From: Olivibacter jilunii
GTDB lineage: Bacteria; Bacteroidota; Bacteroidia; Sphingobacteriales; Sphingobacteriaceae
DNA: 64,000 nucleotides
Direction: 5' to 3'
Assembly (NCBI RefSeq): GCF_900607235.1
Contig: NZ_LR027848.1
Span: 1,043,241-1,107,240 of the forward strand
Shown here: positions 3,618 through 22,956 of the stretch, one piece after another
Numbering within the stretch: the first letter of the stretch is position 1
How the letters are laid out: every line of letters begins with the position of its first letter
Notes under the pieces: model-generated
Databases searched by the model: none
Seen by the model: the letters and a program-made list of their open reading frames with translations, nothing else
What the model was told of the DNA's origin: nothing
Position numbers and translations under genes: made by a program

Positions 3618-3635
3618 TTATTGAAAGGAAATAGA

Positions 3636-5123: not shown

Positions 5124-5229
5124 GTTATAAATTTTAAGGAAGGTAGTGGGGCTTTTCAAGCGAATAAAATTAATAGCTAAAATATTTAATTTAACAGCAG
5201 CTAATAGCTAAAGGCTAATTGCTACAACA

Positions 5230-6228
5230 ATGAAAAAAACTTTTTTCTGTATAGACGCCCATACCTGTGGCTGCCCGGTACGGCTCGTTGCAGGCGGCGG
5301 CCCACTGTTGGAGGGGAATTCCATGATGGAGCGACGTTTGCACTTCATGAAAGAATACGATTGGATTCGGAAGGGGCTGATGTTTGAGCCACGGGGCCAT
5401 GATATGATGAGTGGAAGTATATTGTATCCACCTTGCGATCCGGCGAATGATATCGGCGTACTATATATAGAAACCAGTGGCTGTTTGCCCATGTGTGGAC
5501 ATGGCACAATCGGGACGGTTACTATTGCTATTGAAGAGGGCTTGGTTGAACCCAAGACACCGGGTAAATTACGTCTCGAAACACCGGCAGGTCTGGTCTT
5601 AATTGATTACAAACAAGAAGGTAAACGGGTTAAGTCCGTTAAATTGACGAATGTTAAATCGTTCTTATACGCGGAAGGACTTGAAGTAGTTTGCCCTGAT
5701 TTAGGGATGATACGTGTTGATGTTTCCTTTGGAGGTAATTTCTATGGTATCATTGATCCACAGGAAAATTTCGAGGACATCAACCGGTTTTCTGCCAGCC
5801 AACTCATTTACTACGGTAAAGTAATTCGAAAGCTATTAAATGAAAAGTATCAGTTTATTCATCCGGAGAACAGTAATATTTCGGGTCTAAGCCATATACA
5901 ATGGACAGGGAGTGTTTTGGATCCTTCGTCGACTGGGCGAAATGCAGTACTTGTAGGAGAGAATGCATTAGATAGGTCTCCATGTGGCACCGGCACTTCT
6001 GCACGAATGGCTCAATGGTACGCCAAGGGCAAGCTGAAAAAAGGAGATCGGTTTATTCACGAAAGTTATATCGGGTCAAAATTTCTTGGTACGATCGAGG
6101 AAGAGGCGACGATAAATGGAAAACCGGCTATTATACCCAGTGTAGAGGGCTGGGCTTTAATTACAGGATATAATCATATCATCATTGATGATGAGGACCC
6201 TTATGCTTTCGGTTTTCAGGTGATTTAA
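5230..6228 (+). CDS. 4-hydroxyproline 2-epimerase (proline racemase family)
   Basis: A 332-residue member of the proline racemase family. Both catalytic thiols are present: C89 in MCGHGTIG and C252 in SPCGTGTSA. In this family a Cys/Cys pair marks racemases and epimerases, whereas trans-3-hydroxyproline dehydratases carry Thr at the second position. The protein should therefore interconvert trans-4-hydroxy-L-proline and cis-4-hydroxy-D-proline. The 106-bp gap before it carries two AATAGCTAAA copies (about 5170-5210) and no ORF. The neighbours supply the remaining steps, so epimerase is favoured over plain proline racemase. Confidence 0.92.
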   Translation: MKKTFFCIDAHTCGCPVRLVAGGGPLLEGNSMMERRLHFMKEYDWIRKGLMFEPRGHDMMSGSILYPPCDPANDIGVLYIETSGCLPMCGHGTIGTVTIAIEEGLVEPKTPGKLRLETPAGLVLIDYKQEGKRVKSVKLTNVKSFLYAEGLEVVCPDLGMIRVDVSFGGNFYGIIDPQENFEDINRFSASQLIYYGKVIRKLLNEKYQFIHPENSNISGLSHIQWTGSVLDPSSTGRNAVLVGENALDRSPCGTGTSARMAQWYAKGKLKKGDRFIHESYIGSKFLGTIEEEATINGKPAIIPSVEGWALITGYNHIIIDDEDPYAFGFQVI

Positions 6229-6266
6229 ATTCAAAAGTAAAAAGTAAAAATTCAAAAGTAAAAAAG
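6229..6266 (+). repeat. Short direct repeat in operon gap
   Basis: The sequence ATTCAAAAGTAA occurs at 6229 and again at 6250, a 21-bp period, in the 122-bp gap between the epimerase and dehydrogenase genes. It looks like a local duplication in A-rich spacer. No role is evident. Confidence 0.5.
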
Positions 6267-6350
6267 TCTGTTATGCGTTTCAGTTTGGTTCTTGGTAAAT
6301 TCAAAAAGCCGAGAACGGACAAAGAAAGCTGACAACTAGTATGCTAACAC

Positions 6351-7613
6351 ATGGATAAAGAAAATAAGGGGAGTGTTCTGATTATTGGAGGAGGTATTGC
6401 TGGATTATGTTCAGCCTATTATCTGTTAAAAGATGGTTGGAAAGTTACGCTTCTAGACAGCGGTGATTTAAAAGACAACTGTTCTTATGGTAACGCCGGA
6501 ATGCTGGTTCCCAGTCACTTTACACCACTCGCGGCTCCAGGTATTGTGGCGCAGGGAATCAAGTGGATGTTTAACAGCAAGAGCCCATTTTATGTAAAAC
6601 CGAGTTTGAGTGCTAATCTTATCTCTTGGGGGTTAAAGTTCATTAAACACGCGAATGCTACCCATGTTAACCGTTCTGCACCAAGTATTCGCGACCTAAA
6701 TCTCCTGAGCAGTAACTTATACGACGAAATGGTGAAAACGGATGAATTCTCCTTTGAATTAGCACATAAAGGAATTCTCATGCTATATAAAACAGAGAAA
6801 ATGGCAGAGGAAGAAATCCATTTGGCTGAAACGGCGAAAGCACTGGGTTTGGACGTAGAGGCTTTGTCGAAAGAGCAAGTACAATTGTTGGAACCAAATA
6901 ATAAGCTTGATGTATTGGGCGCGGTACACTATCGTTGCGATGGTCATTTATATCCACAAGCGCTAATGGCGCAGCTTATTGCTTTTGTGAGACAAAAGGG
7001 TGCAGTGATACATGAGCACACTACGGTAACGGGTTTTGAATCCGGTATGGGAAAATTGCAGGCCGTTATTGCCGGAAACAAGAAGTTCAGTGCCGATAAA
7101 TTTGTGATGACCGGAGGCGCTTGGTTGCCGGCAATTGCAAAAAAGGCGGGACTTCGGATTCCGTTAATGCCGGGAAAGGGTTACTCGTTTATGTATAAAC
7201 CTCAGGAGCATACGTTATCGCATCCATCATTGTTACTCGAAGCGAGGGTGGCCGTAACTCCCATGCATGGTCATATTCGCTTCGGAGGAACCATGGAATT
7301 GGCCGCTTTGAACGAAGATATTAACATGAACCGCGTACAGGGCATCGTTGAAGCTATTCCCCGCTACTATCCCGAATTAAAAGTGGCTATGCCGGAGCGA
7401 AAAGACGTTTGGTTCGGTTTCCGACCTTGTTCGCCCGATGGCTTACCATACCTCGGGTACACTAAACAGTTAAAGAACTTGATTATAGCCGGAGGGGGTG
7501 GAATGATGGGACTTAGCTTAGGGCCTGCCTATGGAAAGGTCGTCTGCGAATTGGCAAATGAGCTGCCAAGTTCATCTGATATATCGCTATTTTCACCCGA
7601 ACGTTTTGCTTAA
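6351..7613 (+). CDS. FAD-dependent D-amino acid dehydrogenase, probable cis-4-hydroxy-D-proline dehydrogenase
   Basis: A 420-residue DAO/DadA-type flavoprotein. The FAD-binding motif GGGIAG is at 13-18, followed by the strand that ends in the ribose-binding acidic residue (LLDSGD). The C-terminal GLPYLGYT and AGGGGMMGLSLGPAYG segments are typical of DadA-like dehydrogenases. With the epimerase next door it should oxidise cis-4-hydroxy-D-proline to 1-pyrroline-4-hydroxy-2-carboxylate, passing electrons to FAD. It is the last gene of the operon and is followed by a terminator. The family is firm; the substrate comes from gene context. Confidence 0.88.
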   Translation: MDKENKGSVLIIGGGIAGLCSAYYLLKDGWKVTLLDSGDLKDNCSYGNAGMLVPSHFTPLAAPGIVAQGIKWMFNSKSPFYVKPSLSANLISWGLKFIKHANATHVNRSAPSIRDLNLLSSNLYDEMVKTDEFSFELAHKGILMLYKTEKMAEEEIHLAETAKALGLDVEALSKEQVQLLEPNNKLDVLGAVHYRCDGHLYPQALMAQLIAFVRQKGAVIHEHTTVTGFESGMGKLQAVIAGNKKFSADKFVMTGGAWLPAIAKKAGLRIPLMPGKGYSFMYKPQEHTLSHPSLLLEARVAVTPMHGHIRFGGTMELAALNEDINMNRVQGIVEAIPRYYPELKVAMPERKDVWFGFRPCSPDGLPYLGYTKQLKNLIIAGGGGMMGLSLGPAYGKVVCELANELPSSSDISLFSPERFA

Positions 7614-8767: not shown

Positions 8768-9640
8768 TTATCTTGAAAGGTGGATGCGCTTATATTCCAG
8801 TGGAGTAACGCCTTTTTGTTTTTTGAAATGCCGATAGAAATTAGATACATTGTTAAATCCACATTCGAAGCAAATGACTTCCGTTGGTAAAATATTCTCG
8901 ATCAATAAACGGCAAGCGTGGCTAATCCGAATCTCAATTAGAAAATCGTAATAGCTTTTTCTGGTCATCATTTTGAAGTAGCGACAAAAAGAAGTTACGC
9001 TAAGGTTGCTGATCGCCGCGATTTCTTTCAATGTTATCTCCGATTTATAATTACTAAAGGTGTAGGTATAGACTTTATTCAACCGAATGGTGTCGGCTTC
9101 ATTGGGCGAAGTGAAGGCATGGTATTTATTCGTTATAAGCCTATACTCATCGCTTTCCGCTAATGTTTTTAAAATAGATAACAATAGAATAATACGTTCC
9201 AAATTTTCAGCAGTAGCACAATCATGCATTAGCTGTGCAACTTTTTTCTGCGTTTCTCCGTAAAATATCATTCCGCTCTTGGCTTTTTCGTACAATTTTG
9301 GAATAAGGTAGGCTTCCGGTATATTAATCCAATCCTTGCCCAGACAATCCGGCAAAAACTGCATAACGATGGCTTCAATATTAAAATTCGGATCTTGTTG
9401 AAAATACTCTTCTCGACAGCGCCAGGCATGAGGTAGGTTTTCGCCTAATAAAATAATTTCACCCGAAGAAAAATTGTCTATGTGATCACCAATAAACCGT
9501 ACACCCTCCCCTTTAATATTGTAGTGCAACTCCAATTCGGGATGGTAATGCCAAACATTACCAAAGTTCGGCATGATATCATGATTGATGCTAAAGGAAC
9601 TCTCTGATTTTACAGGAACTTTTTTTAAACGAGGTTTCAT
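8768..9640 (-). CDS. AraC family regulator, divergent from the sugar-acid operon
   Basis: Started at ATG 9640 (MKPRLKKVPVKSESSF, a usual N-terminus in this Bacteroidota subfamily) it has 290 residues. An in-frame GTG at 9691 would add 17. The N-terminal cupin contains WHYHPELELHYNIKGEG and a GEIILLGENLPHAW segment. The C-terminal half has two helix-turn-helix motifs (ITLKEIAAISNLSVTSFCRYFKMMT, then VICFECGFNNVSNFYRHFKK). It is transcribed away from the operon beginning at 9989 and shares a 348-bp region with it. That arrangement fits a local regulator responding to the sugar acid or its breakdown product. The effector is unknown. Confidence 0.85.
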   Translation of the reverse strand: MKPRLKKVPVKSESSFSINHDIMPNFGNVWHYHPELELHYNIKGEGVRFIGDHIDNFSSGEIILLGENLPHAWRCREEYFQQDPNFNIEAIVMQFLPDCLGKDWINIPEAYLIPKLYEKAKSGMIFYGETQKKVAQLMHDCATAENLERIILLLSILKTLAESDEYRLITNKYHAFTSPNEADTIRLNKVYTYTFSNYKSEITLKEIAAISNLSVTSFCRYFKMMTRKSYYDFLIEIRISHACRLLIENILPTEVICFECGFNNVSNFYRHFKKQKGVTPLEYKRIHLSR

Positions 9641-9743
9641 TGCGTACTTTTTTAACGAGTATCTTATAATATCCGACCAATCTATCACCACTTTATGTCA
9701 TATGATAACTCGATCCTTAAAGGTATGTAAACAAGTTTGGTTA

Positions 9744-9988: not shown

Positions 9989-11146
9989 ATGATGACAGTT
10001 CTACGAGATATAAGTGTTAATTTTCCAAACAAGATACTTTTTGGAAGCGGATGTTTGAATCAAATAGCATCTGATATTGCGCCTTTAGGCCTAAAGAAGG
10101 TACTGATCGTCAGTATAGCACCTTTATTGCCCACTATACAAAGCTTGATCAAGCAATTAGATAACATCGGGATACAAGTTTTTCTTCATACAGGAATAGA
10201 ACAAGAACCTTCTTTCGATGATTTTAATCAGCTGATAAATAGCTATGTAGCGGAAGATATCGATGGCGTAATAGGTATTGGCGGTGGCAGCGTACTGGAT
10301 ATAGCAAAACTTGCAGCCGTGCAGTTAAAAAGTGATCAAAAGCTGGGAGCGATTGTCGGTAAAAATTTAATTCGAGAGAGACGGATTAAGCTAATCTGTG
10401 TACCAACCACTGCGGGTACGGGAAGTGAAGCTTCGCCTAATGCGATTTTTATCGATCCGGTCGACCATCAAAAAAAAGGAATAATCAGCCCTTTTTTGGT
10501 ACCCGATCTAGTTTGTGTGGATCCTTTATTGACGCATAGCGTACCTGCCGGGGTAACCGCCGCTACCGGGCTTGATGCGCTTACACACTGCTTGGAAGCA
10601 TATACGAATAAATTTGCTCATCCTTTTATCGATATATACGCTTTAGAAGGAATAAAGTTAATAGCAGCCAATTTAGTAAAGGCTGTTGAGGACGGTAGCC
10701 ATGAGTTTGCTCGCGCGCAAGTAGCGATGGGAAGCTTATTCGGTGGGATTTGCCTTGGACCGGTCAATACGGCGGCCGTGCACGCCCTGGCTTATCCTTT
10801 AGGGACGCGTTTCCAAATAGCGCATGGCTTATCCAATGCGTTACTTCTACCCCATGTGATGACTTTTAACATTCCCGCAGCACCCGATCGTTACGCAGCG
10901 GTTGCGCTCGCATTGGGATGTGAAAAGTTAGCCGATGACCGAGGGACTGCTATGGCGGGTGTTGAAAAAATAAAGCAAATTATTCGAGCATGTAATCTTC
11001 CGGCTAGATTAAGAGATTTAAATATTCCGGAAACTTCGATACCTCAGTTGGCCGAAGATGCCATGAAAATAACAAGATTATTAGTAAACAATCCAAGGGA
11101 AATTACCATAGATGATGCAATATCTATTTATCGCGAGGCTTATTAA
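9989..11146 (+). CDS. Iron-containing (group III) alcohol dehydrogenase
   Basis: A 385-residue dehydroquinate-synthase-like alcohol dehydrogenase started at ATG 9989; a TTG three bases earlier is ignored. The cofactor loop GIGGGSVLDIAK is near 96-107 and PTTAGTGSE near 139-147. The metal site is seen as GLDALTHCLEAY (Asp and His) plus the two His of AVHALAYPLG and IAHGLSNALLLPH. The family reduces or oxidises small aldehydes, alcohols and hydroxy acids with NAD(P)H. As first gene of an operon with a lyase, a PdxA homologue and a four-carbon acid kinase, it may handle the aldehyde released by the lyase or a tetronate. The substrate is not readable from the sequence. Confidence 0.87.
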   Translation: MMTVLRDISVNFPNKILFGSGCLNQIASDIAPLGLKKVLIVSIAPLLPTIQSLIKQLDNIGIQVFLHTGIEQEPSFDDFNQLINSYVAEDIDGVIGIGGGSVLDIAKLAAVQLKSDQKLGAIVGKNLIRERRIKLICVPTTAGTGSEASPNAIFIDPVDHQKKGIISPFLVPDLVCVDPLLTHSVPAGVTAATGLDALTHCLEAYTNKFAHPFIDIYALEGIKLIAANLVKAVEDGSHEFARAQVAMGSLFGGICLGPVNTAAVHALAYPLGTRFQIAHGLSNALLLPHVMTFNIPAAPDRYAAVALALGCEKLADDRGTAMAGVEKIKQIIRACNLPARLRDLNIPETSIPQLAEDAMKITRLLVNNPREITIDDAISIYREAY

Positions 11147-11203
11147 ACGACTGACGCCTGAATGCCAAAATAGATAGATGTAAACAAAACAAAAGACTGA
11201 CAG

Positions 11204-12142
11204 ATGAAGACAAAAAAGAAATACCATGGTACCATTGTTCCCTTAGTAACACCCATAAATACAAAATATCAACTTGATAAAGAAGCGGTCGCCCGAATTT
11301 TGGAGAATTTAAAACAGTTCAATGCGTCTCCCTTTATTTTGGGTACAACCGGCGAGTCCGCATTGCTGACTAACCAATTGAAACTAGAGTATCTTGAAAC
11401 AGTTGCCGGTATTCGATCAACTGAACATAAGCTATATGTTGGAATATCATCCAATTCAATGAAGGAAACCATTGATTTTTCGAAACGTTGTTTCGAGTTT
11501 GGCGCGGATGCGGTGGTTGCTACGCTTCCATTTTATTACAAGCTATCAGAACGTCAAATAAAGAAGTATTTTCTGCAATTAGCCGATCATGTGGACGGTC
11601 CAATGGTTATTTATAATATACCCGCTACCACCCATATGTCTATACCGCTAAATCTATTAGACGAGTTAAGTCTGCACGACAATATCGTAGCTACCAAAGA
11701 TTCCGAACGATCAGAAGAACGTCTTCAGGAATCATTGTCTCGTTGGGCCGATAGGCCTGATTTTAGTCATCTGCTCGGTTGGGCTGCGAAGTCCGCGTAT
11801 GCACTTCTACATGGTAGCGACGGTTTGGTACCTAGTACGGGGAATTTAGCGCCTTCCATTTACGACGAAATGTACAAGGCCATTGCTGAAGGCTCCGAAG
11901 AGAAAGCATACTATTATCAACGACAATCGGACCTATTGGGCGATCTTTATCAAAAAGGAAGAACCTTAGGCGAATCTCTATGGGCGCTAAAAATCCTGAT
12001 GCAATCAGTTGGTTTATGTGAACCCCATGTGATGCCGCCGCTTCAAGGGTCATCCACAGAAGAAATCAATCTTTTAAAGGAGTCGTTTCAGCAACTTATT
12101 AAGGAAGAAGGAATAAAACTGAATATTTATAATCATGTCTGA
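11204..12142 (+). CDS. DHDPS/NAL-family lyase or aldolase in sugar-acid operon
   Basis: A 312-residue DapA-family barrel with the usual catalytic set: GTTGES at 47-52, Y137 in MVIYNIP and Schiff-base K165 in ATKDSE. The family covers dihydrodipicolinate synthase, N-acetylneuraminate lyase, 2-keto-3-deoxy-sugar-acid aldolases and dehydratases. Here it shares an operon with PdxA and DUF1537-kinase genes and overlaps pdxA by 8 bp. A sugar-acid aldolase or dehydratase is therefore more likely than lysine synthesis. It is clearly different in the substrate loop from the 2688-3617 paralogue (GTTGES against GSLGEAS). The exact reaction is unresolved. Confidence 0.85.
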   Translation: MKTKKKYHGTIVPLVTPINTKYQLDKEAVARILENLKQFNASPFILGTTGESALLTNQLKLEYLETVAGIRSTEHKLYVGISSNSMKETIDFSKRCFEFGADAVVATLPFYYKLSERQIKKYFLQLADHVDGPMVIYNIPATTHMSIPLNLLDELSLHDNIVATKDSERSEERLQESLSRWADRPDFSHLLGWAAKSAYALLHGSDGLVPSTGNLAPSIYDEMYKAIAEGSEEKAYYYQRQSDLLGDLYQKGRTLGESLWALKILMQSVGLCEPHVMPPLQGSSTEEINLLKESFQQLIKEEGIKLNIYNHV

Positions 12143-13175
12143 GAAGCCAATTATTGGAATTACTATGGGCGATCCGGCTAGTATCGGGCCTGAAATTGCC
12201 GTTAAGGCGCTACTATCAAAAAAAGTCTATGATGCATGCCGACCGCTACTGATAGGAAATGCCAACGTATTTCAACATATCATAAATGCATTGGATATTC
12301 AGGTTTCAATCCATTCAATACAACATATAGAAGACGCAAAGTTTATTTATGGCCAACTGGATGTATATGATTTGGGACCTGTTGATTTAAATGCGATTCA
12401 TTTTGGACAAGTGTCGGCTGCGGCGGGAGATGCTGCCTTTCGATCGGTAAAAAAGGTGATTGAATTGGCGATGGACGGTCAGATTGATGCCACGGTGACA
12501 GGCCCCATTAATAAAAAATCGATTAGTGAAGCTGGGCATCAATATCCCGGACATACCGAAATCTATGCACATTATACCAATACCAAAAAATATGCGATGC
12601 TATTGGTAGAAGAGCAAATGCGCGTTATTCACGTATCAACACACGTTTCCCTCCGTCAAGCCTGTGATCTGGTAAAGAAGGATCGTATTTTAGAGGTGAT
12701 TGAATTGCTTCAAAACGGGCTGATCAGTTTAGGCTTAAGAAATTTAAAGATCGGTGTGGCCGGCCTTAATCCACATGCAGGCGATTCAGGACTGTTCGGA
12801 ACGGAAGACGACGAAGAGATTGCCCCTGCTGTAGCGGAGGCAGGGCAGCTTGGATATGATGTGGAGGGGCCTGTACCTGCAGATACCCTGTTTTCCAAGG
12901 CCGCTACCGGCTATTACGGAGGAATTGTAGCCATGTATCATGATCAAGGCCATATTCCCTTTAAATTAACCGGATTCAAATGGAATCCTGAAAAGAAGCA
13001 GATGGATAGCGTGAAGGGAGTTAATATCACCATGGGATTGCCCATTATTCGCACGTCCGTGGATCACGGTACGGCCTTTGAAATCGCAGGCAAGGGTATT
13101 GCCAGTGAGGACGCGATGCTCTTGGCGATCGAAGCAGCAACACAATTAGCATTAAACAAAGTGTCTAGCACATGA
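12135..13175 (+). CDS. pdxA: PdxA-family dehydrogenase, probable tetronate 4-phosphate dehydrogenase (PdxA2)
   Basis: A 346-residue homologue of 4-hydroxythreonine-4-phosphate dehydrogenase. The N-terminal MGDPASIGPE is the family hallmark, and the metal-binding histidines are H140 (PGHTEIYA), H170 (STHVSLRQ) and the first His of HDQGH near 268. PdxA2 proteins paired with DUF1537 kinases oxidatively decarboxylate D-threonate or D-erythronate 4-phosphate to dihydroxyacetone phosphate. The start lies inside the end of the lyase gene and the stop overlaps the kinase start as ATGA, so translation is coupled. A vitamin B6 biosynthetic role is less likely given these neighbours. Confidence 0.87.
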   Translation: MSEKPIIGITMGDPASIGPEIAVKALLSKKVYDACRPLLIGNANVFQHIINALDIQVSIHSIQHIEDAKFIYGQLDVYDLGPVDLNAIHFGQVSAAAGDAAFRSVKKVIELAMDGQIDATVTGPINKKSISEAGHQYPGHTEIYAHYTNTKKYAMLLVEEQMRVIHVSTHVSLRQACDLVKKDRILEVIELLQNGLISLGLRNLKIGVAGLNPHAGDSGLFGTEDDEEIAPAVAEAGQLGYDVEGPVPADTLFSKAATGYYGGIVAMYHDQGHIPFKLTGFKWNPEKKQMDSVKGVNITMGLPIIRTSVDHGTAFEIAGKGIASEDAMLLAIEAATQLALNKVSST

Positions 13176-14326
13176 TTATTGTAATCGCAGATGATTTAAC
13201 CGGAGCCACTGAATTAGGAGGGGTCGCCCTACGTTATAACCTTCAGGTAGAAATTACGAATCAAATAGACGTTTCTATAACTTCGGGAACCGATCTGTTG
13301 GTAATCAATACAGACACGCGGTCAATGGCTATAGAGCAGGCGATGGAGCGGTTGGACAACGTACTGAGATGGATAAAGACGCTTTCCTTTACACATATAT
13401 TTAAAAAGGTAGATTCTGTATTAAGAGGACATATAGTTGCTGAGCTTACAGCGCAAATGCTTGCTATTGGTGCCAAACGGGCATTATTGCTCCCTGCTAA
13501 TCCACGGTTAGGCCGGACAATCCGAAAGGGAAAATACTATGTGCAAGATAAACCAATTCATGAGACGGCTTTTTCGTGCGATCCCGAATTTCCTGTTAAA
13601 AATGCCAATGTCTTGGAAATGCTTGGAGCGCAAGGAGACGTGCAGATAAAATCATGGAGTGACACGTTACCTGCACATGGCCTTGTTGTAGGCGAAATAG
13701 CGACAGAACAGGACATTAGTAAATGGGTACAAATTGCACCGGAGGATACCCTGCTTGCAGGCGGGTCTTCCGCATTTATTGCTTTTCTTGAGCATAAAGC
13801 AAAGGCATTAAGGTGCGAACCATTGGAGGGAAATAAGTCATTTACAGGATTCAGGAGACCTTCATTATACATCTGTGGAAGCAATTATGAGAAAAGTATA
13901 CAAAGAATTAAGGCTTGGCGTATGGTGAATGAACCTGTTTGCTACCTTCCGATCAGTAAACCGGGGGAAAATATGGATGAAGAAGAGCTCTACCGTTGGA
14001 TGGAACGGGTGAAGGCTGCGCTAATGCATCATCAAAAAGCAATAATCGCCTTTGATAATGAGCTAGTATCCAGTATGCCATTAACTCCAAGCTTCTTAAG
14101 GATAAGCATGGCAAAAATGGTCGATCGCCTCTTGAATGAAGTCACCATCCAAGAACTGATAATAGAAGGGGGAGCCACGGCCGGAACGATATTAGCACAT
14201 CGGCAGATCGGACAATTAAAACCAGTGGAAGAATTAGCTCCAGGGGTAATTCGCTGTAGCATATATAAAGAGCCAAAAATATGGATAACTTTAAAACCGG
14301 GTAGTTACAACTGGTATACGCTATAG
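13172..14326 (+). CDS. Four-carbon acid sugar kinase (DUF1537 family)
   Basis: A 384-residue protein that opens with IADDLTGATELGG (DDLTGA at 7-12) and has the second signature KKVDSVLRG at 78-86. The C-terminal domain carries EGGATAGTIL and ends with LKPGSYNWYT. In the characterised family this last region reads KPGGFG, so the final motif is divergent. DUF1537 kinases phosphorylate D-threonate, D-erythronate, L-threonate or 3-oxo-tetronates on the 4-hydroxyl using ATP. It overlaps the pdxA homologue by 4 bp, the standard pairing for tetronate use. Which stereoisomer it takes cannot be told. Confidence 0.88.
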   Translation: MIIVIADDLTGATELGGVALRYNLQVEITNQIDVSITSGTDLLVINTDTRSMAIEQAMERLDNVLRWIKTLSFTHIFKKVDSVLRGHIVAELTAQMLAIGAKRALLLPANPRLGRTIRKGKYYVQDKPIHETAFSCDPEFPVKNANVLEMLGAQGDVQIKSWSDTLPAHGLVVGEIATEQDISKWVQIAPEDTLLAGGSSAFIAFLEHKAKALRCEPLEGNKSFTGFRRPSLYICGSNYEKSIQRIKAWRMVNEPVCYLPISKPGENMDEEELYRWMERVKAALMHHQKAIIAFDNELVSSMPLTPSFLRISMAKMVDRLLNEVTIQELIIEGGATAGTILAHRQIGQLKPVEELAPGVIRCSIYKEPKIWITLKPGSYNWYTL

Positions 14327-14357
14327 CACAAATACTAACACTAAAACAACCAACATT

Positions 14358-16010
14358 ATGACAAAAACTGCATTAGGGGCGGTGGATTATGGTATCATAG
14401 TTATCGTTATTATGATTACCCTGTATATGGGGATGCGCTATGCAAAAAATCAAACGTCTACGCACTCATTTTTTTCGGCAAGGGGTAGGGTTCCGTCGTG
14501 GGCTATCGGTATTTCGCTCTTGGCCACGCTGATAAGCAGTGTCACTTTTCTCGGCTACCCAAGCGAAGGATTCACATCCAACTGGATTTTATTGGTCCAA
14601 GGGTTAATGGTGCCAATTGTATTGCTGCTTAGTATATGGTTTATCGTACCTATGTACAGAAAGGTAATCGGATTAAGCACCTATGAATATTTTGAAAAGC
14701 GCTTCGGATCATTCGCCCGTTATTACAGTTCCATTGCCTTTGTTCTGCGCCAATTCTCCGGAATGGGGACCGTGTTATACCTATTGGCAGTTGCTTTAAG
14801 TAGTATGACAGGAGCCAATACTTTTTGGGTAATCGCCGGTACCGGGGCTATTATCATTACTATTAATTTGCTTGGTGGTTTGGAGGCCGTTATCTGGTTA
14901 GATGTTTTTCAGGGATTTATGCTGTTTTTAAGCGGAATCATCTGTCTGCTATTGATATTCTTTGCCGTTGATGGCGGTGCTAAACAAGTATGGCATATTG
15001 CCCAAATGAATCATCGAACCGGCTTCGGACCTTATGACTTCGATTTTAAAAATCTGACCTTCATCGTCGTTGCCATTAATGGCTTATTTTATGGAATACA
15101 AAAATACGGCACTGACCAAACGGTTGTTCAGCGATACTTAACTGCTAAGACAGACAAGGGAGCTATTGGAGCTTCGCTATTAGGTATCTTACTTACCGTA
15201 CCCGTTTGGGCGCTGTTCATGTTCATTGGAACTGCCTTATTTGCATACTATACTCAGCAACCGCTACCAGCAAATGTAAATGCCAATAGTGTGTTCCCCT
15301 ATTTTATTATGACCGAACTGCCAACAGGTGTTGTGGGGTTTGTGTTAGCGGCCATGATCTCTGCTGCAATTTGTAGTTTAAGTGCCGATCTTAACTCCTT
15401 GGCAGCAGTAGGGGTAGAAGATTACTATAAAAAGATAAAACCGGGAAAAGCAGATCGTATCTATTTAGCTAGTAGTAGATGGATTGTAGTATTATCGGGC
15501 ATCATTACCATCATAATTGGCTTCGTATATGCTTATTTGGGAAGTGAAGGGATTTTAGGGGTTATTTTTACATTATATGCTATATTTTCAGGTGGCATTG
15601 TCGGAATCTTTCTGTTAGGGCTGTTTTCAAGTAGGGCCAATGAAAAAGGCGTTAATATTGCTATTGTAACATGTATATTTTTCACAGCTTATGCACTTTT
15701 AACGTCAACGGAAGTCGGTATAGGAGATAATAAGTACAAACTGCTGGATTTAGGCACCTTTAATTTTACCCATCACAAGCTTATGCTTGGTGTATATAGC
15801 CATATTCTGGTGGTCGTAGTAGGCTATATTAGCAGCCTATTCTTTCCAAAACCGTCAATCAATGAAAATTTGCTTTACAGTGGCTGGTTGAAGCTAAGAA
15901 GGGAGAGAAAGCAACAACAACAAGCTCATACCGTAATAAGCGAAAAGTTTAAAGAAGGGGGTGAAACCTCTGCAAGAGAAAACGGGAAGCGAAAGCTCTT
16001 TGTTGGCTAA
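14358..16010 (+). CDS. Sodium:solute symporter (SSS family)
   Basis: A 550-residue inner-membrane protein with about 13 hydrophobic segments. The first is AVDYGIIVIVIMITLYMGMRY, and the family pattern STHSFFSARGRVPSWAIGISLLAT follows it near 35-58. It ends in a charged cytoplasmic tail from about residue 510. SSS proteins import sugars, sialic acid, carboxylates or amino acids with sodium. It is 31 bp after the kinase gene and closes the operon, so it most likely imports the sugar acid the operon degrades. The family is certain; the substrate is inferred. Confidence 0.88.
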   Translation: MTKTALGAVDYGIIVIVIMITLYMGMRYAKNQTSTHSFFSARGRVPSWAIGISLLATLISSVTFLGYPSEGFTSNWILLVQGLMVPIVLLLSIWFIVPMYRKVIGLSTYEYFEKRFGSFARYYSSIAFVLRQFSGMGTVLYLLAVALSSMTGANTFWVIAGTGAIIITINLLGGLEAVIWLDVFQGFMLFLSGIICLLLIFFAVDGGAKQVWHIAQMNHRTGFGPYDFDFKNLTFIVVAINGLFYGIQKYGTDQTVVQRYLTAKTDKGAIGASLLGILLTVPVWALFMFIGTALFAYYTQQPLPANVNANSVFPYFIMTELPTGVVGFVLAAMISAAICSLSADLNSLAAVGVEDYYKKIKPGKADRIYLASSRWIVVLSGIITIIIGFVYAYLGSEGILGVIFTLYAIFSGGIVGIFLLGLFSSRANEKGVNIAIVTCIFFTAYALLTSTEVGIGDNKYKLLDLGTFNFTHHKLMLGVYSHILVVVVGYISSLFFPKPSINENLLYSGWLKLRRERKQQQQAHTVISEKFKEGGETSARENGKRKLFVG

Positions 16011-16089
16011 CCTGATCACCGGATAAAGCTATTTGATTTTAGCGAGTTAATTCCTATGTTTGGGTAAAACTAATATCAAGCCTAAAGAT

Positions 16090-19000
16090 ATGTTTTATTT
16101 TTACCCTTCAAGCGGAAAGAAACCGGTCATTTTAATTTTATTGATAATTGTTTCTTTGACAGTTAATGCGCAGTTTAAGCGTATCGGTTTAAAGGAGGGT
16201 TTATCCAATAATTCCGTTACCACGATTTTCCAAGATCGATATGGATTTATGTGGGTGGGTACTTTTGATGGTTTAAACCAATATGATGGCTATCAGTTTA
16301 GGACTTTCAAAAACAGCCTTGATGATTCTTTATCCTTACCAAACAATAGAGTATCAGCCATCGAAGAAGATGGCGCCGCTAATCTTTGGGTAGGAACCAA
16401 AATGGGCGTTTATCGTCTCGATAAATCTAAATGGAGTTTCTTCCCTCTTTTTTATAGGGAGGAAAACAAACCAATCAACCCCGATAGAAAGGTTACCACT
16501 CCTATAAATGCCTTACTAAAAATGGAAAACGGCAACCTGCTGATTTGTACGGCTGGACAGGGTTTGCTGCTTCATGACCCAAATACAAATAGAGCAAAGC
16601 AAATTCCGTTAAAATGTGATAAACAGTTAACCTATCAATTTCACGCACAGGCTGCTGTAATGAGTAGTAAACAAACGGTTTGGGTCTTCGTGCAGAATGT
16701 AGGGCTCATGTATTATGATGCTACGAAGGGATTCCTGGAATTGGTCGACCACAAGGTTTGGCAGGCTAACTGCTTGGTGTCAGATAAGCAGGGAAGTATA
16801 TGGATAGGTAATAATAAGGGCCTTCATCGACTTCGAAAATCGCAGAATAATAGATTCATCTATCAGCATTATGCAGCCATAGGTAGTCAACCTGTCATGA
16901 GCCTAAGTCTCGATAAACAAGGGCAAATATGGGTTGGATCAGATGGAGGAGGTGTTTTTCAGATTAATCCTCAAACGGAAGAACACCAAGGCTTTTTTGC
17001 AGGCGACGCGGCCGATAATCTATCAAGCGCTGCCGTATACGCAATATATATAGATAATGCCGATCGGAAATGGATCGGCACCTTAAGAGGCGGTTTAAAT
17101 ATACTGGATAAAACGGCTAATCGGTTTAAATTGGTGCAACGTAATGGTAATCATCCGAATGCCTTAAGCAGTAACTTTATTATTTCTTTTTGTGAACAAG
17201 ATCGTGATCATGTTTGGATAGGTACCGACGGTTCGGGAATAAGCTTGTGGAACCGATCTACCAATACATTTAAAAACTTTAAGCACGATCCCCACAATAG
17301 CAATAGCATCAGTAATAATTATGTGGTGAATATTATAAAAGACGATGAAGAAAATCTGTGGATTGCAACTTATGGCGGCGGAATTAACAAGTTTAACCTT
17401 CGAACCCGTCAATTTAAGCGATATCGTTGCGTTAATACCGTGTACCGATATGAAGAAGCGAACGTATGGGCACTTTATAAAGATAGCAAAGGAGGTATAT
17501 GGGCAGGAACCTTGTCGGACGGAGGGCTTTATCGGCTTAATAAGAAAGGAGACTACTTTGAGCTTGCGGACCATTCGATTACCAACCTGCTTACTATTAC
17601 GGAAGATGAAGACGGACAGTTATGGGGAGGAACGTTCAACAGTTTGATAAAAATAGATCTCCAAGCCAAACAGCATGTCCGGTTTCCTTTGGGTAGTGCG
17701 ATACGTGCCATTAAGCCGAGTGGAAAGGGAAAATTCTGGTTAGCCACCGAAGGTAAGGGCTTAATGCTTTTTGATAAGGTGAAAAGATCATTTAAAACCT
17801 ATTCAGAATCCGATGGGTTGCCCGAAAATGCCGTATTGAATATCTTAGAAGACAACAGCAACCATTTGTGGTTGAGTACCTTCAACGGTTTATCAGAATT
17901 TTCTCCTCGCGACAATACCTTTCGTAATTTCTTTGCTGCCGACGGGTTACAGAGCAATCAGTTTAACTATAATGCAGCGTTGAAACTATCTACCGGCGAA
18001 TTGTTGTTCGGCGGTATAAATGGATTCAATATCTTTCTTCCAGAGACGATAACATCGTTAGAAAGTAAAGCACCGTTGCGCATTACGGGCATCCGAATAA
18101 ATAATAAGCCGATAGAAAATTCGGATTTAAATACCGGCGAGAGCGGACTTAGTGAGATTAATACACTTAAACTTCCTTATGATCGTGCGGTACTTTCGGT
18201 AGATTTTGCAGCTTTAAATTATAGTTTTCAAGATAAAATCAATTATGCATTCTACTTAGCGGGCTGGGAAGACAATTGGAATTATGTCGGCCATACTCGG
18301 AGTGCAAATTATGGGAAATTGCCTCCGGGAAAATACGTTTTACATATTAAAGCCTCCGATGCCGATGGGCAGTGGATGCCAAATGAACGCTTACTTTACA
18401 TACAGGTATCACCGCCCTGGTGGGCTACTTGGTGGGCTTATGGTTTGTATGGTATTCTCTTTCTATTTACTGTGACAGGTTATAATCGCTATAGAAAAAG
18501 CAGTTTGCAACTGAAATATGAAGTGGAAACGGCAAAAATGGAGAAAGAAAAGGAACACGAATTGAATGAAAAGAAAATCGCGTTTTTCACACACGTTTCG
18601 CATGAACTCCGTACACCCTTAACGCTCATTATTAATCCAATTAGAGCCTTGCTGACGAAAGAAAAGGCACAGAATCTAGAGATTTTGCAAAGCGTATACC
18701 GGAATAGTAAACGGCTTTTAAGTATGGTAGATCAATTGCTTTTATTTAAAAAGGCAGAAAGTGATTTGGATAACCTAAAGATCGTTCAGCTTAATACCGA
18801 CGAGCTGTGTCAGGAAATTTATCAATGTTATGAGCAGCAGGCTAAGTTAGCATCGATTGACTTTTTTTTGGAATTGCCCGAAACAACCGAGCCTATCTAT
18901 GCTGACCGGGAAAAAATAGAAGTTATTTTGTTTAATCTGCTCACCAATGCCTTTAAGTTTACTGCAACAAGAGGCACGGTGACATTGAAACTACGTTTTC

Positions 19001-20160
19001 ACGAGGATAAAGTTCAGTTCCTGGTAGAAGACAATGGTTGTGGAATACCGCGTGAATATCAGAACGAACTGTTTGAGAAATTTGCGCGACATGCACATGG
19101 ACAACAAAGTGGCTTCGGAATAGGCTTATACCTCTCCAAAAAATTTGCCGAACAACATGTGGGAACGCTGGATTATTTCAATCGGCCTGATGGGGGTAGT
19201 ACCTTTATCCTTTCTTTACCGCGTGGGCGACAGCATTTGCAAGATCGCTTAATTTACGAAGACATCGGTCAGAAATCGATGTTCTTGGAAGAACTTTTGG
19301 AAGAGCCGATCAGTAGACCGCAAATAATAGATTCGTACGCTAAAGGCAAGACAATGGTGCCTACAACTTTAATCACTAAAAAGCCGTTGATGATGATAAT
19401 CGACGATAACCAAGAAATCGTTGATTATCTATATAGGTGCTTTGAACCAAGCTTTTCTTTGATGGTTTTTCATAACGCTAAGGATGCATTGGCAGCTTTG
19501 CCGAGTAAAATAGCTGACATTGTTCTTTGTGATGTGATGATGCCGGATATGGATGGACTTCAGTTTGTAGAGGAGCTGAAAAAAAACAAACTTTGGCATA
19601 AAATTCCTGTGATTTTATTGACTGCAAGTACTTCAGAAGAAAATAAACTTAAAGGTATAGAGTTAGGGGCTGACGATTATGTTAGCAAACCCTTTAATGA
19701 AGTTCATTTGCAGGCAAGAATACAGGCCCTGTTAAAACAAAAAAAGGTAATTGAAGAAACATTTTATGAACAGGTAACTTTGTCAACCCGCATCGGCATT
19801 TCTGAAGAAGAGGTAGCTTTTTTACAACGCTGCGAGGACATTGTTCTCAAACACTTACATCATGAATTTACTATTAAGAGCCTTGCGGCCGAAATAGGGA
19901 TGAGTCATTCGGCACTTTATAAAAAGATTAAGAGTCTGTCAGGACGTACCGCCAATGAGTTTATGCGTCTGATTAAACTAAGAAAAGCAGCGCAAACACT
20001 GTTAAAAGAGGACGTAAATATCAATGAAGTGTCAATAATCGCGGGGTTCAATGATGTAAAGTACTTTCGCGAGCAGTTTCAAAAGGAATTTAGCATGACA
20101 CCTTCTGAATATGTAAGAAAGTATAAAGGATTATTTCAAAAGAAGTATCAAATTAGTTGA
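16090..20160 (+). CDS. Hybrid two-component system regulator (HTCS)
   Basis: A one-protein sensor and regulator of 1356 residues when started at ATG 16090, which gives a clear signal peptide (1-27, ending SLTVNA). An upstream TTG at 16060 is not needed. Order: periplasmic two-bladed propeller repeats (30 to about 650), Y_Y_Y domain (about 690-755), membrane span (about 776-800), HisKA with H838 in SHELRTP, HATPase (NLLTNAFKF, DNGCGIP, GFGIGLYLSKK), receiver with D1148 in CDVMMPD, and an AraC-type HTH near 1265-1350. HTCS proteins bind oligosaccharides in the periplasm and switch on nearby polysaccharide loci. The GH16 locus 3 kb away or the preceding operon could be the target. Confidence 0.93.
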   Translation: MFYFYPSSGKKPVILILLIIVSLTVNAQFKRIGLKEGLSNNSVTTIFQDRYGFMWVGTFDGLNQYDGYQFRTFKNSLDDSLSLPNNRVSAIEEDGAANLWVGTKMGVYRLDKSKWSFFPLFYREENKPINPDRKVTTPINALLKMENGNLLICTAGQGLLLHDPNTNRAKQIPLKCDKQLTYQFHAQAAVMSSKQTVWVFVQNVGLMYYDATKGFLELVDHKVWQANCLVSDKQGSIWIGNNKGLHRLRKSQNNRFIYQHYAAIGSQPVMSLSLDKQGQIWVGSDGGGVFQINPQTEEHQGFFAGDAADNLSSAAVYAIYIDNADRKWIGTLRGGLNILDKTANRFKLVQRNGNHPNALSSNFIISFCEQDRDHVWIGTDGSGISLWNRSTNTFKNFKHDPHNSNSISNNYVVNIIKDDEENLWIATYGGGINKFNLRTRQFKRYRCVNTVYRYEEANVWALYKDSKGGIWAGTLSDGGLYRLNKKGDYFELADHSITNLLTITEDEDGQLWGGTFNSLIKIDLQAKQHVRFPLGSAIRAIKPSGKGKFWLATEGKGLMLFDKVKRSFKTYSESDGLPENAVLNILEDNSNHLWLSTFNGLSEFSPRDNTFRNFFAADGLQSNQFNYNAALKLSTGELLFGGINGFNIFLPETITSLESKAPLRITGIRINNKPIENSDLNTGESGLSEINTLKLPYDRAVLSVDFAALNYSFQDKINYAFYLAGWEDNWNYVGHTRSANYGKLPPGKYVLHIKASDADGQWMPNERLLYIQVSPPWWATWWAYGLYGILFLFTVTGYNRYRKSSLQLKYEVETAKMEKEKEHELNEKKIAFFTHVSHELRTPLTLIINPIRALLTKEKAQNLEILQSVYRNSKRLLSMVDQLLLFKKAESDLDNLKIVQLNTDELCQEIYQCYEQQAKLASIDFFLELPETTEPIYADREKIEVILFNLLTNAFKFTATRGTVTLKLRFHEDKVQFLVEDNGCGIPREYQNELFEKFARHAHGQQSGFGIGLYLSKKFAEQHVGTLDYFNRPDGGSTFILSLPRGRQHLQDRLIYEDIGQKSMFLEELLEEPISRPQIIDSYAKGKTMVPTTLITKKPLMMIIDDNQEIVDYLYRCFEPSFSLMVFHNAKDALAALPSKIADIVLCDVMMPDMDGLQFVEELKKNKLWHKIPVILLTASTSEENKLKGIELGADDYVSKPFNEVHLQARIQALLKQKKVIEETFYEQVTLSTRIGISEEEVAFLQRCEDIVLKHLHHEFTIKSLAAEIGMSHSALYKKIKSLSGRTANEFMRLIKLRKAAQTLLKEDVNINEVSIIAGFNDVKYFREQFQKEFSMTPSEYVRKYKGLFQKKYQIS

Positions 20161-20315
20161 TCGCTATTAAAATCAAATCGACTTCTCCAGTCCGGAGAAG
20201 AACCGGTTCCTCTTGTGTTTACCCTCAGCGGATATTTTGGTTATATACTAACAGTACCCGCTATATAGAAAATGAAAGAAAAGCGAAGAGATAGTAAAGG
20301 AGTAGTGAAGGATAC
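20161..20315. other. HTCS downstream region with stem-loop
   Basis: The 7-bp stem CTTCTCC/GGAGAAG (20182-20188 with 20194-20200, 5-nt loop) is followed at once by the palindrome GAACCGGTTC. No T-run follows, so it is a weak termination candidate for the HTCS transcript. No ORF of note was seen. Confidence 0.4.
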
Positions 20316-20370
20316 GTGGACCTGACGTGGACTAAAGGTGGACTTGACGTGGAGTTCATGTGGATTATTG
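20316..20370. repeat. Five GTGGA copies at exact 11-bp spacing
   Basis: GTGGA begins at 20316, 20327, 20338, 20349 and 20360. Copies one and three also share the following CYTGAC, so a 22-bp unit is visible within the 11-bp rhythm. The array lies between the convergent HTCS and small-protein genes. Spacing of one helical turn puts every copy on the same DNA face. A 76-codon ORF that starts on the first GTG looks spurious. Confidence 0.75.
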
Positions 20371-20473
20371 GATTGTTTTTTTTAAGAGAAAGAAATGATC
20401 ACGGGTTGTATAGAGGTAATGCAAAAATACGAATTGATTTAATATTTCGGAATTTTACTACCGGAAGTCAAGC

Positions 20474-20504
20474 AAAAAAGCTAACGGCATTTACACCGTT
20501 GGCT
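20474..20504 (-). terminator. Rho-independent terminator of the small Lys-rich gene
   Basis: A 9-bp stem (20479-20487 with 20496-20504, one G-U pair) with an 8-nt loop. On the minus strand it is followed by six T. It lies 35 bp past the stop of the small secreted-protein gene. Confidence 0.8.
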
Positions 20505-20538
20505 CTTATGAACAAGCATTATCTGTTTATTTACCAAA

Positions 20539-20751
20539 TTATTTGACCTCTTTTTTTGCGGTAGCTGTTTGCACGACGGCTGAGGTTTTACTTTCTCCTT
20601 TTAACGCATGGCTTTTACGATGCTTTTTTACACCTTCACCTTTTTTTTGAACTTCAGTTTTAGCTGATACTGTTTCTTTTTTAACATTTTGTTGTGCGAA
20701 TGCGCCGAAAGTTGATGCAACTAATGCAAGCGCTAAAATTGTTTTTTTCAT
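20539..20751 (-). CDS. Small Lys-rich secreted protein, function unknown
   Basis: A 70-residue protein with a textbook signal peptide (MKKTILALALVASTFGAFAQ, cleavage after about residue 19). The roughly 50-residue mature part is very rich in Lys, Thr, Ser and Val (KKETVSAKTEVQKKGEGVKKHRKSH) with no cysteine. It looks disordered and strongly basic. Its 5' leader can form a long-range stem (CGGAAGC 20774-20780 with GCTTCCG 20810-20816), and it has its own terminator. It lies directly downstream of a two-component system on the same strand. I do not recognise a named family; short basic periplasmic proteins of this type are common in sphingobacteria. Confidence 0.75.
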   Translation of the reverse strand: MKKTILALALVASTFGAFAQQNVKKETVSAKTEVQKKGEGVKKHRKSHALKGESKTSAVVQTATAKKEVK

Positions 20752-20872
20752 GGTATTTATCTTTTTAATACATCGGAAGCTTTTGACGGCTCTTTCAATT
20801 TATGTCTTTGCTTCCGTTGTTTTGTTATACCAAAGTTGAGAAGTTAACATGAAGATTTGATGAAGATGAAAT

Positions 20873-22195
20873 TCAATGACGTGTAATAGGTATATGCAAT
20901 GCAATAGTGGTCCCTTCGTGAAGAATACTGGAAGCCTGGATATCCATCGTGTGGAAAGCAGCGATACTTTTGGCAATCGCCAGCCCTAAGCCATGCCCTT
21001 CTTCCTGTGAAGTACTGAAACGTTCATAGCGATTAAATATGTGTTGTAATGTTTCCGCTGTCATGCCAATTCCAGAATCCTCAAAGAAAAGAACGAGATG
21101 GTCGTTTTTTATCTCGTTGTAGACACGAATTGTGCCATGCTGTTGGTTATATTTTATGGCATTTTTGATGAGGTTGGCAAAAAGAATGTGAATCAGTGTT
21201 GAATTTCCGATGATATTGAGCTTCGGCGATAATTGGTTGTGTAATTGGACCTCTTTATTAGCCAGTAAATCGTCCATCTCAACTCGAATCTCTTCAATCA
21301 AGTTTGTGAGATCGATTTTCTCGAATTTTTCGTATTGTCCATTGTCAATCTTCGCAATCAAAAGTAGATCTTTTATGGTTCTTTTTAAAAATGCGAGCGT
21401 CATTAACGAATCACTTATTTTCTGAACGGCTGAAGTGGATAGACTTTCATCGTTAAGCATATTTTCAAATCGGCTACTTAAGGTACTGATCGGAGTAAGT
21501 AGTTCATGTGAAACATTTGAAGTGAATTGCTTTTCGACATCCAACTGTCGACTTACTTTTTCCATTAGTTGCATCAGGCTTCTATCTAACAGTAGGAAAT
21601 CTTCTGTACTTGTTTTCTCGGGAATATAGCTAAACTGTAAGGGATCGTTAATTTTATTCAGCTTCTTTTCGACAATATTATAAAATGGTTGTAGCAATTT
21701 ATTAGTAAAAGATATATCAATGATTAAGGTTATGATGATGGAGATAAGAAGTGCTAAGCAGGTAAATAACCAGATATTTTTCTCCAATTTACTTAACACA
21801 ACCGTAGTTTCGCCTATTTCCAGGCGATAATTGTTTTGATGAAATCTAAAATAGTAAGTATAAATGAGGTAAGGTTGTGTTTCCCCCTCTATTTCGCGCG
21901 TTTGTTTGATGAAATTACCATGGTTGTTTTTAACGAGTTGCTTAATGGGAGTTAGAATAATAAACTCTTCCTTTAAAATGTTATAGTCGGTAAAGTTGGC
22001 TTGGCTTTGAATAAGGTGGTCGATCTGTTCCTGCGTAAGTCCATGCATGAATTTCTTGCGCTTGTCTACGAGGCGCTGCTGCAAATGATGATTCGAAATG
22101 CTATCCGTAAAAAGGTAAATAACAAAACTGAACACCAAGATGATGATTACCTTGGTAAGTGAATTATATAGCGCTATTTTATTGGAAAGTTTCAT
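20873..22195 (-). CDS. Sensor histidine kinase of a classical two-component system
   Basis: A 440-residue inner-membrane kinase from ATG 22195; a TTG 12 bp upstream is also in frame. Two membrane spans (about 13-33 and 141-162) flank a periplasmic region of about 105 residues. Then comes HisKA with H230 in NVSHELLTPISTL, and an HATPase with LIKNAIKYN, EDSGIGM and GHGLGLAIAKS. The periplasmic part has no recognised fold. The gene follows its response regulator by 17 bp, an RR-HK operon order usual for OmpR-type pairs. The signal is unknown; the small secreted protein downstream is a candidate target. Confidence 0.9.
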   Translation of the reverse strand: MKLSNKIALYNSLTKVIIILVFSFVIYLFTDSISNHHLQQRLVDKRKKFMHGLTQEQIDHLIQSQANFTDYNILKEEFIILTPIKQLVKNNHGNFIKQTREIEGETQPYLIYTYYFRFHQNNYRLEIGETTVVLSKLEKNIWLFTCLALLISIIITLIIDISFTNKLLQPFYNIVEKKLNKINDPLQFSYIPEKTSTEDFLLLDRSLMQLMEKVSRQLDVEKQFTSNVSHELLTPISTLSSRFENMLNDESLSTSAVQKISDSLMTLAFLKRTIKDLLLIAKIDNGQYEKFEKIDLTNLIEEIRVEMDDLLANKEVQLHNQLSPKLNIIGNSTLIHILFANLIKNAIKYNQQHGTIRVYNEIKNDHLVLFFEDSGIGMTAETLQHIFNRYERFSTSQEEGHGLGLAIAKSIAAFHTMDIQASSILHEGTTIALHIPITRH

Positions 22196-22212
22196 AAGCG
22201 ACGCCAAATAGG

Positions 22213-22893
22213 TTACAATTTAACTCGGTAGCCAACCCCGCGAACGGTTTCGAGCCAATCGACCTCGGCATGTTGTTGTAGTTTTTTACGTAAGTTCTTT
22301 ATATGAACATCTACAAAATTGGAGTCAACATAAGCATCGTAGAGATCACCCCATATATGTTCTGTGAGACTCATCCTCGCCACTACTTTGTTTTTGTTCA
22401 ACACTAAATAAGCAAGTATATCATATTCTTTTTTGGTGAGATTTAATACCACATTCCCGTAACAGAAGGTCCTTTGCTGTATATTTAACGAAAAGTCACG
22501 TACGGGAATGTTATTATCGTTCACCTGATGTTTCCTGCGTATAATTGCATGAATCCTAGCGCGCAATTCCGGCAACGAGAATGGTTTAGGCAAATAGTCA
22601 TCTGCTCCCAGCTCTAAGCCTGCTATGCGATCGTCAATAGCCCCTCTGGCCGAAAGAACAATCACTGCATCCCTTCTGTCTTTGAATTTTTTTAGCTCGT
22701 TTATTATGTCCAAACCGTTGCCATCCGGTAGTGTAATATCCAATAAAATGAAATCATAGGTGCTTTCTGTTATTTTTTCCAATGCAGAGCTTTTTTTCCA
22801 TGCATGGTCGATTACGCATCCCTCTTCTGTAAACAGAAATTCAGCCACTTCGAGCGCAAGGTCTTTCTGATCTTCAACAATAAGGATTTTCAT
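22213..22893 (-). CDS. OmpR/PhoB-family response regulator
   Basis: A 226-residue DNA-binding response regulator. The receiver domain covers about 1-118, with phospho-acceptor D52 in LLDITLPDG, the acidic pocket in VEDQKD, and K103 in LPKPF. The C-terminal winged helix covers about 128-225, with LTKKEYDILAYLV and the WLETVRGVGYRVKL end typical of OmpR/PhoB. It is the first gene of the TCS operon and is divergent from susC at 23114, with 220 bp between. It could therefore act on that promoter as well as its own. Confidence 0.92.
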   Translation of the reverse strand: MKILIVEDQKDLALEVAEFLFTEEGCVIDHAWKKSSALEKITESTYDFILLDITLPDGNGLDIINELKKFKDRRDAVIVLSARGAIDDRIAGLELGADDYLPKPFSLPELRARIHAIIRRKHQVNDNNIPVRDFSLNIQQRTFCYGNVVLNLTKKEYDILAYLVLNKNKVVARMSLTEHIWGDLYDAYVDSNFVDVHIKNLRKKLQQHAEVDWLETVRGVGYRVKL

Positions 22894-22948
22894 GTTTATC
22901 CAATAAACACATTTATGAACGCTTTGTCTTTATATTAAAATATTAAAG

Positions 22949-22956
22949 CAAAGTTA
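22949..22956 (-). promoter_or_regulatory. Candidate -7 element for the two-component operon
   Basis: Read on the minus strand this is TAACTTTG, a match to TAnnTTTG. It would give a leader of about 49 nt before the regulator ATG at 22893. A TTTAG lies roughly 17 bp further upstream. No equally good element was found for the divergent susC. Confidence 0.5.

Follow-up and report, generated by a model that had tools for sequence, protein, structure and literature searches.

A conserved operon of Bacteroidota proposed to catabolize 3-deoxy-D-lyxo-hept-2-ulosarate from rhamnogalacturonan-II

A DUF1537 kinase and a PdxA-type dehydrogenase alone complete the breakdown of D-threonate, and a D-threonate pathway with this pair (DtnK/PdxA2) was reportedly described by Zhang et al. 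in 2016. In the breakdown of galactarate and glucarate, a 2-keto-3-deoxy-aldarate is cleaved to pyruvate and tartronate semialdehyde, which is converted to glycerate, the substrate of a kinase. Bacteroidota of gut and soil degrade rhamnogalacturonan-II (RG-II), one of the most complex glycans known from plants, whose side chain D carries the C7 keto-aldaric acid 3-deoxy-D-lyxo-hept-2-ulosarate (Dha). Here we describe an operon of Olivibacter jilunii, located at positions 9989-16010 (+ strand) of a 64,000-nucleotide stretch of contig NZ_LR027848.1 (hereafter the window; genome of 6.7 Mb, 21 contigs), that encodes, in this order, an Fe-dependent alcohol dehydrogenase (Fe-ADH), a lyase of the DHDPS family, a PdxA homolog, a DUF1537 kinase, and an SSS symporter. 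All five genes are intact and co-directional; the open reading frames of the lyase and PdxA overlap by 8 bp and those of PdxA and the kinase by 4 bp, which bears out the tight coupling reported in an earlier note on this DNA, and Fe-ADH is separated from the lyase by 57 bp and the kinase from the symporter by 31 bp.

We infer that this operon very probably constitutes a complete cytoplasmic pathway for Dha catabolism, of which the individual activities, the substrate of the transporter, and the regulation are all predictions. It is likely that the pathway is an undescribed one contained in a single operon, with a newly assigned Dha aldolase, tetruronate reductase, and Dha symporter, and that it occurs widely among Bacteroidota from soil, aquatic, and plant-associated habitats while missing in many other Dha-releasing Bacteroidota. 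The earlier note knew of no described pathway with this gene set, and we likewise found neither such a pathway nor a described route of Dha utilization in the open literature searched, most subscription papers lying outside it. As far as that literature shows, the substrate, the first two steps, and the assembly are new, and the enzyme families and the last two steps are known.

Proposed route from Dha to central metabolism

In the proposed pathway, a GH143 hydrolase would release Dha from RG-II outside the cytoplasm, and the symporter would import it. The lyase would cut the C3-C4 bond of Dha (HOOC-CO-CH2-CHOH-CHOH-CHOH-COOH) in a Schiff-base retro-aldol reaction to yield pyruvate and a four-carbon aldehyde acid, tetruronate (4-oxo-D-threonate), which Fe-ADH would reduce with NADH to D-threonate. 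The kinase would then use ATP to form 4-phospho-D-threonate, which the PdxA homolog would oxidize and decarboxylate to dihydroxyacetone phosphate (DHAP) and CO2, regaining the NADH, so that the net reaction would be Dha + ATP -> pyruvate + DHAP + CO2 + ADP. Carbon (7 = 3 + 3 + 1) and all other atoms balance, the route is NADH-neutral at the cost of one ATP, and each enzyme has a step and each step an enzyme. In the Fischer projection, the D-lyxo C5/C6 centers of Dha, renumbered from the carboxylate, are D-threo and hence those of D-threonate; given that D-threonate is a known DUF1537/PdxA substrate, the stereochemistry supports Dha as the starting compound.

Read in this way, the operon offers a gap-free Dha route with an exact stereochemical fit and would assign likely functions to four broadly annotated gene families. 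It would also provide a source for bacterial D-threonate and separate Dha-using organisms from GH143 carriers without the operon.

Conservation and association with the Dha hydrolase

A search with a kinase alignment, run against a single genome for each GTDB species, identified 394 relatives of the kinase. Of these, 80 were retained as named loci; six of the 80 were cut by contig ends and left out, leaving 74 informative loci. Fe-ADH, lyase, PdxA, and kinase genes are all present, in that order, in 71 of the 74, and the symporter gene lies directly 3' of the kinase gene in 66 of the 71 complete operons. A first survey of relatives and the phylum had found the kinase in few genomes and the same four-gene order in all nine first loci with a close kinase. 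The loci span several families of Bacteroidota and derive from Mucilaginibacter, Pedobacter, Sphingobacterium, Niastella, Chitinophaga, Spirosoma, Larkinella, Pontibacter, and Flectobacillus, as well as from metagenome-assembled genomes (MAGs) of Melioribacteraceae/Chlorobiota, and kinase identity among conserved loci falls to ~35%. The four genes are a unit that is coherent over long distances, more than a chance neighborhood; the earlier note had named a lack of co-conservation of the lyase and Fe-ADH with the kinase and PdxA as the finding that would count against its proposal, and the loci show the opposite. An AraC-family regulator is encoded divergently upstream of Fe-ADH in the window, and its orthologs (66-94%) have the same placement in Olivibacter and several Mucilaginibacter loci; it is the probable activator of the operon. 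Promoter and terminator scans gave results no better than shuffled sequence.

The Dha-hydrolase site of GH143 is a five-fold propeller (PMC6811678), and in plants Dha and 3-deoxy-D-manno-oct-2-ulosonate (Kdo) are confined to RG-II (PMC12168206). As a GH143 marker we used full-length matches to PF24067 ("BT_1020-like, N-terminal beta propeller"), the N-terminal domain of BT1020, in a sample of 201 genomes of the family. PF24067 is present in 35 of 36 genomes with the kinase versus 23 of 165 without it (Fisher p=1.6e-22, the genomes being related and not independent), and of these 35 genomes, 25 have the two genes no more than 50 kb apart, often in one and the same pectin PUL (polysaccharide utilization locus), and 19 of them no more than 15 kb apart. 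The sole kinase genome of the family without PF24067, equated with locus L120 by its contig coordinates, has a kinase-PdxA pair without the lyase or Fe-ADH. Together with L145 (Flavobacterium sp. SUN052) and L163 (Acidobacteria), this locus forms a natural control: these three bare DUF1537-PdxA pairs are accompanied by neither lyase, Fe-ADH, nor GH143, in contrast to the sampled genomes with the complete four-gene set, 32 of 33 of which have at least a partial GH143 match (fragments in two MAGs; p=6e-4). The lyase and Fe-ADH therefore track the Dha hydrolase, not the tetronate pair. The stand-alone pairs at L120:8956-11134 and L145:8874-11146, which are closely related to those of the operon and occur with other transporters, probably belong to plain tetronate users.

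The 620-residue PF24067 protein linked to the operon in polysaccharide utilization loci (PULs) matches PDB 5mqr, which we take to be BT1020 in agreement with the Pfam name, over residues 24-611 (E=3e-240), and on this similarity the gene very probably encodes a Dha hydrolase. A large pectin locus encloses the operon in Desertivirga xinjiangensis (L092) and Paradesertivirga mongoliensis (L137); it comprises two PL1-like pectate lyases (labeled from a sequence motif, with no strong Pfam match), a GH140 apiosidase, GH78 alpha-L-rhamnosidases, GH2, a BNR_2 protein, and the GH143-type PF24067 protein. The BNR_2 sialidase-like gene directly precedes Fe-ADH in both, and in these and other genomes the operon is flanked by this gene and an esterase-like gene of the RG-II-type PUL. 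The source genome has GH143 on another contig (G000:C3:626707), in a PUL that runs PL1-like, DUF6298, GH140, GH43-like, GH143, GH2, GH78, DUF3826, BNR_2, esterase-like, xylose-isomerase-like, GH78, essentially the order of D. xinjiangensis minus the operon. Its BNR_2 and esterase-like genes are adjacent, with a gap of ~5 bp, where D. xinjiangensis has the five-gene operon; the Olivibacter operon sits in the window, away from this PUL.

The conservation of the four genes supports the longer route proposed in the earlier note, in which a 2-keto-3-deoxy acid is split by the lyase into pyruvate and an aldehyde, and the co-occurrence and linkage with GH143 allow that acid to be named as Dha. That note also had the Fe-dehydrogenase reduce or oxidize the aldehyde toward a tetronate or a diol; reduction to the tetronate fits the present data, and oxidation and the diol find no support in them.

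Several further observations concern the PULs. In 29 of the 71 loci with a complete operon, the BNR_2 gene precedes it, and PULs that lack the operon retain this gene; its product is a candidate Kdo hydrolase or second Dha hydrolase. In the PULs read, whether or not they contain the operon, DUF6298 (PF19815, unknown function, 847 bits) is encoded near GH143 and is a candidate for a new RG-II enzyme; DUF3826 (PF12875) behaves in the same way. In genome G127 (L021:13630-19899, L030:3-3033), the operon adjoins genes for a GlpK-like FGGY kinase, a ribose-type ABC transporter, a split transketolase, and an L-fucose-isomerase-like protein, a second sugar pathway that possibly handles a further sugar of RG-II, for example apiose.

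Substrate assignment and competing explanations

Assignment of the operon proteins to Pfam families is secure. The lyase keeps the GTTGE and YNxP..TT motifs and the Schiff-base lysine K165 and scores 136 bits to the DapA model (cut-off 206), 115 to NanA (cut-off 281), and 103 to Arch_KDGaldase (cut-off 390). Where YagE-type enzymes have an acidic GYDD segment, the operon lyase has GW(A/G)A(K/R), and all ten aligned operon orthologs share R169; this replacement and this arginine would fit an acidic distal group of the substrate, although they are only suggestive. We propose that the lyase is a Dha (3-deoxy-D-lyxo-heptulosarate) aldolase that releases pyruvate. The metal ligands of Fe-ADH (D197/H201/H266/H280) are conserved in 76 sequences; its nearest NCBIfam models, all with cut-offs far above its scores, include the lactaldehyde (FucO; 246 bits, cut-off 523), 4-hydroxybutyrate (succinate-semialdehyde), and sulfoacetaldehyde reductases, and we propose that it reduces tetruronate to D-threonate. 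The best NCBIfam model for the DUF1537 protein is the D-threonate kinase (122 bits, cut-off 450), and its gene adjoins, with the 4-bp overlap, that of a PdxA-family dehydrogenase as in the D-threonate catabolic pathway; a role as D-threonate 4-kinase is proposed. The operon PdxA has the metal-site histidines, scores 278 bits to PDB 6e85 ("D-threonate 4-phosphate dehydrogenase") versus 172 to the PdxA structure 1ps7, and reaches 326 bits against an equivalog cut-off of 583 bits; it is proposed to convert 4-phospho-D-threonate to DHAP and CO2. A second PdxA encoded elsewhere in the source genome presumably serves vitamin B6. The symporter is the proposed Dha importer.

Some findings weigh against the assignment of Dha. 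None of the NCBIfam cut-offs for functional equivalogs is reached by the lyase, kinase, or Fe-ADH, and for the operon PdxA only that of the generic pdxA model is exceeded, so that homology alone gives no substrate. Kinship among the genomes makes the Fisher p-values overstate significance, and they indicate a strong association rather than literal probabilities. The operon is absent from 23 of the 58 GH143 genomes of the family, where the best lyase homolog has ~27% identity, and from nearly all GH143 genomes that represent other families in the sample of the phylum; Dha release thus does not require the operon, which is not the sole fate of Dha. One MAG (L159) with all four enzymes shows no GH143. 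The operons of Melioribacteraceae/Chlorobiota lie beside a sulfatase gene, and the GH143-like genes there are more divergent, so the polymer may differ in these organisms. Finally, the co-occurrence covers the whole RG-II PUL and therefore also Kdo, aceric acid, and apiose; genomics alone leaves these other sugars as candidates, and it is the chemical fit that singles out Dha. As separate observations, loci L171, L172, L173/L174, L175, and L176 have a GH143 PUL without the operon or a close lyase homolog, and genomes of this kind may discard the released Dha or use a second route. The operons at L164, L168, L023, and L024 (Melioribacteraceae/Chlorobiota) adjoin sulfatase and, in part, laminin-G-domain genes, which hints that Dha may there come from another polymer, possibly a sulfated one.

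Given that the DUF1537/PdxA pair suffices for D-threonate, the locus could encode simple catabolism of D-threonate (or D-erythronate), with the lyase and Fe-ADH merely co-transcribed and serving another sugar acid, for example by cleaving 2-keto-3-deoxy-rhamnonate to pyruvate and lactaldehyde for reduction to propanediol. The resemblance of Fe-ADH to lactaldehyde reductase and the nearby GH78 rhamnosidases would suit this explanation, which we consider unlikely: tetronate-only pairs do exist (L120, L145, L163), without the lyase, Fe-ADH, or GH143, and a possible dehydratase, the enolase-superfamily gene in the PULs of P. mongoliensis and genome G817, has no homolog among the 80 named loci. This gene, which G817 carries without the operon, was rejected as the dehydratase supplier.

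It is likewise improbable that the lyase is an aldolase for Kdo, from side chain C of RG-II, yielding pyruvate and D-arabinose, with Fe-ADH reducing the arabinose and the kinase and PdxA serving a separate tetronate. The RG-II targeted by the same PULs does carry Kdo beside Dha (PMC12282258), the BNR_2 protein, often encoded ahead of the operon, may be a hydrolase for Kdo, and GH78 rhamnosidases fit the Rha-Kdo chain; however, the product would be a C5 aldose that neither Fe-ADH nor DUF1537/PdxA can convert to DHAP, and two unrelated pathways would not predict four genes that stay together in nearly all informative loci. We consider it highly improbable that the substrate is a different sugar of RG-II, for instance apiose/apionate or aceric acid, despite the GH140 apiosidase in the same PUL and the inclusion in the DUF1537 family of the 3-oxo-isoapionate kinase OiaK (NF042436), an enzyme of apionate catabolism. 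The operon has no oxidoisomerase, RuBisCO-like, or transcarboxylase partners, and apionate would leave the DHDPS-family lyase without a role; we rejected it on the score of the kinase to the OiaK model (18 bits, cut-off 700) and on its tertiary C3, which bars PdxA chemistry. Dha remains the substrate that we favor.

Neighboring loci and comparison with known systems

The operon is flanked in the window by two further loci, and the coordinates of the operon genes, the regulator, and example genes of the PULs are collected in table 1. Positions 1671-7613 hold a complete trans-4-hydroxyproline operon encoding an AraC regulator, a DHDPS-type member, an aldehyde dehydrogenase, a 4-hydroxyproline epimerase (PRK13971, 571 bits), and a DadA-like oxidase. 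Its DHDPS paralog (2688-3617) has 25% identity to the operon lyase and different motifs, with no close relation, and the adjacency of the two operons is kept only in Olivibacter sp. XZL3; we therefore rejected it as a functional partner. Downstream, positions 16060-29296 encode a hybrid two-component regulator followed by a SusC/SusD pair and a GH16 protein, probably a separate glucan utilization locus, and the hybrid two-component gene is kept beside the operon only in the same Olivibacter strain.

Table 1. Operon genes in the window and example genes in related loci (positions in a named locus where one is given)
Feature	Position	Strand	Family evidence
AraC-family regulator, divergent	8768-9691	-	PF12833
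Fe-dependent (group III) alcohol dehydrogenase	9989-11146, ATG start	+	PF00465/PF25137
DHDPS-family class I lyase	11204-12142	+	PF00701, 153 bits
PdxA2-like NAD-dependent dehydrogenase/decarboxylase	12135-13175	+	PF04166
DUF1537 four-carbon acid sugar kinase	13172-14326	+	SBD_N PF07005 (132 bits) + NBD_C PF17042
Na+/solute symporter (SSS)	14358-16010	+	SSF PF00474; TIGR00813 209 bits, over cut-off
BNR_2 example	L019:13759-14901		
BNR_2 example	L020:13665-14804		
BNR_2 example	L170:7772-9010		
DUF6298 example	L027:6952-10101		
DUF6298 example	L169:13630-16764		
DUF6298 example	L171:3974-7132		
DUF6298 example	L172:13308-16559		
DUF6298 example	L174:2826-5951		

The proposed pathway can be compared with several described systems. 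The GH143/BT1020 system for RG-II of Bacteroides thetaiotaomicron shares Dha release and a homologous propeller protein, encoded in the operon-linked PUL or elsewhere in the genome; it differs in that this release is an extracytoplasmic step and most GH143 genomes outside the operon group lack the operon, and the cytoplasmic fate of Dha in it is not described in the sources found. The sialic acid (NanA) and KDG/YagE aldolases, which belong to the DHDPS superfamily, share with the operon lyase the Schiff-base lysine and a pyruvate-releasing retro-aldol reaction on 2-keto-3-deoxy sugar acids, whereas the operon lyase scores under the curated cut-offs, has the altered segment in place of GYDD, and is proposed to act on a dicarboxylate. 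The proposed reduction of tetruronate would be analogous to that of succinate semialdehyde or sulfoacetaldehyde by homologous Fe-ADHs. Galactarate/glucarate breakdown has in common with the proposed pathway the logic of an aldolase, an aldehyde-acid reductase, and a kinase, but it starts from a C6 rather than a C7 compound, uses other enzyme families, and has no PdxA decarboxylation. The DtnK/PdxA2 pathway uses the same kinase and PdxA2-type families, and the last two proposed steps are identical to it, ending in DHAP and CO2; unlike that pathway, which has a TRAP transporter, the operon encodes an SSS symporter and adds a lyase and an Fe-ADH that would make D-threonate from a C7 keto-aldarate.

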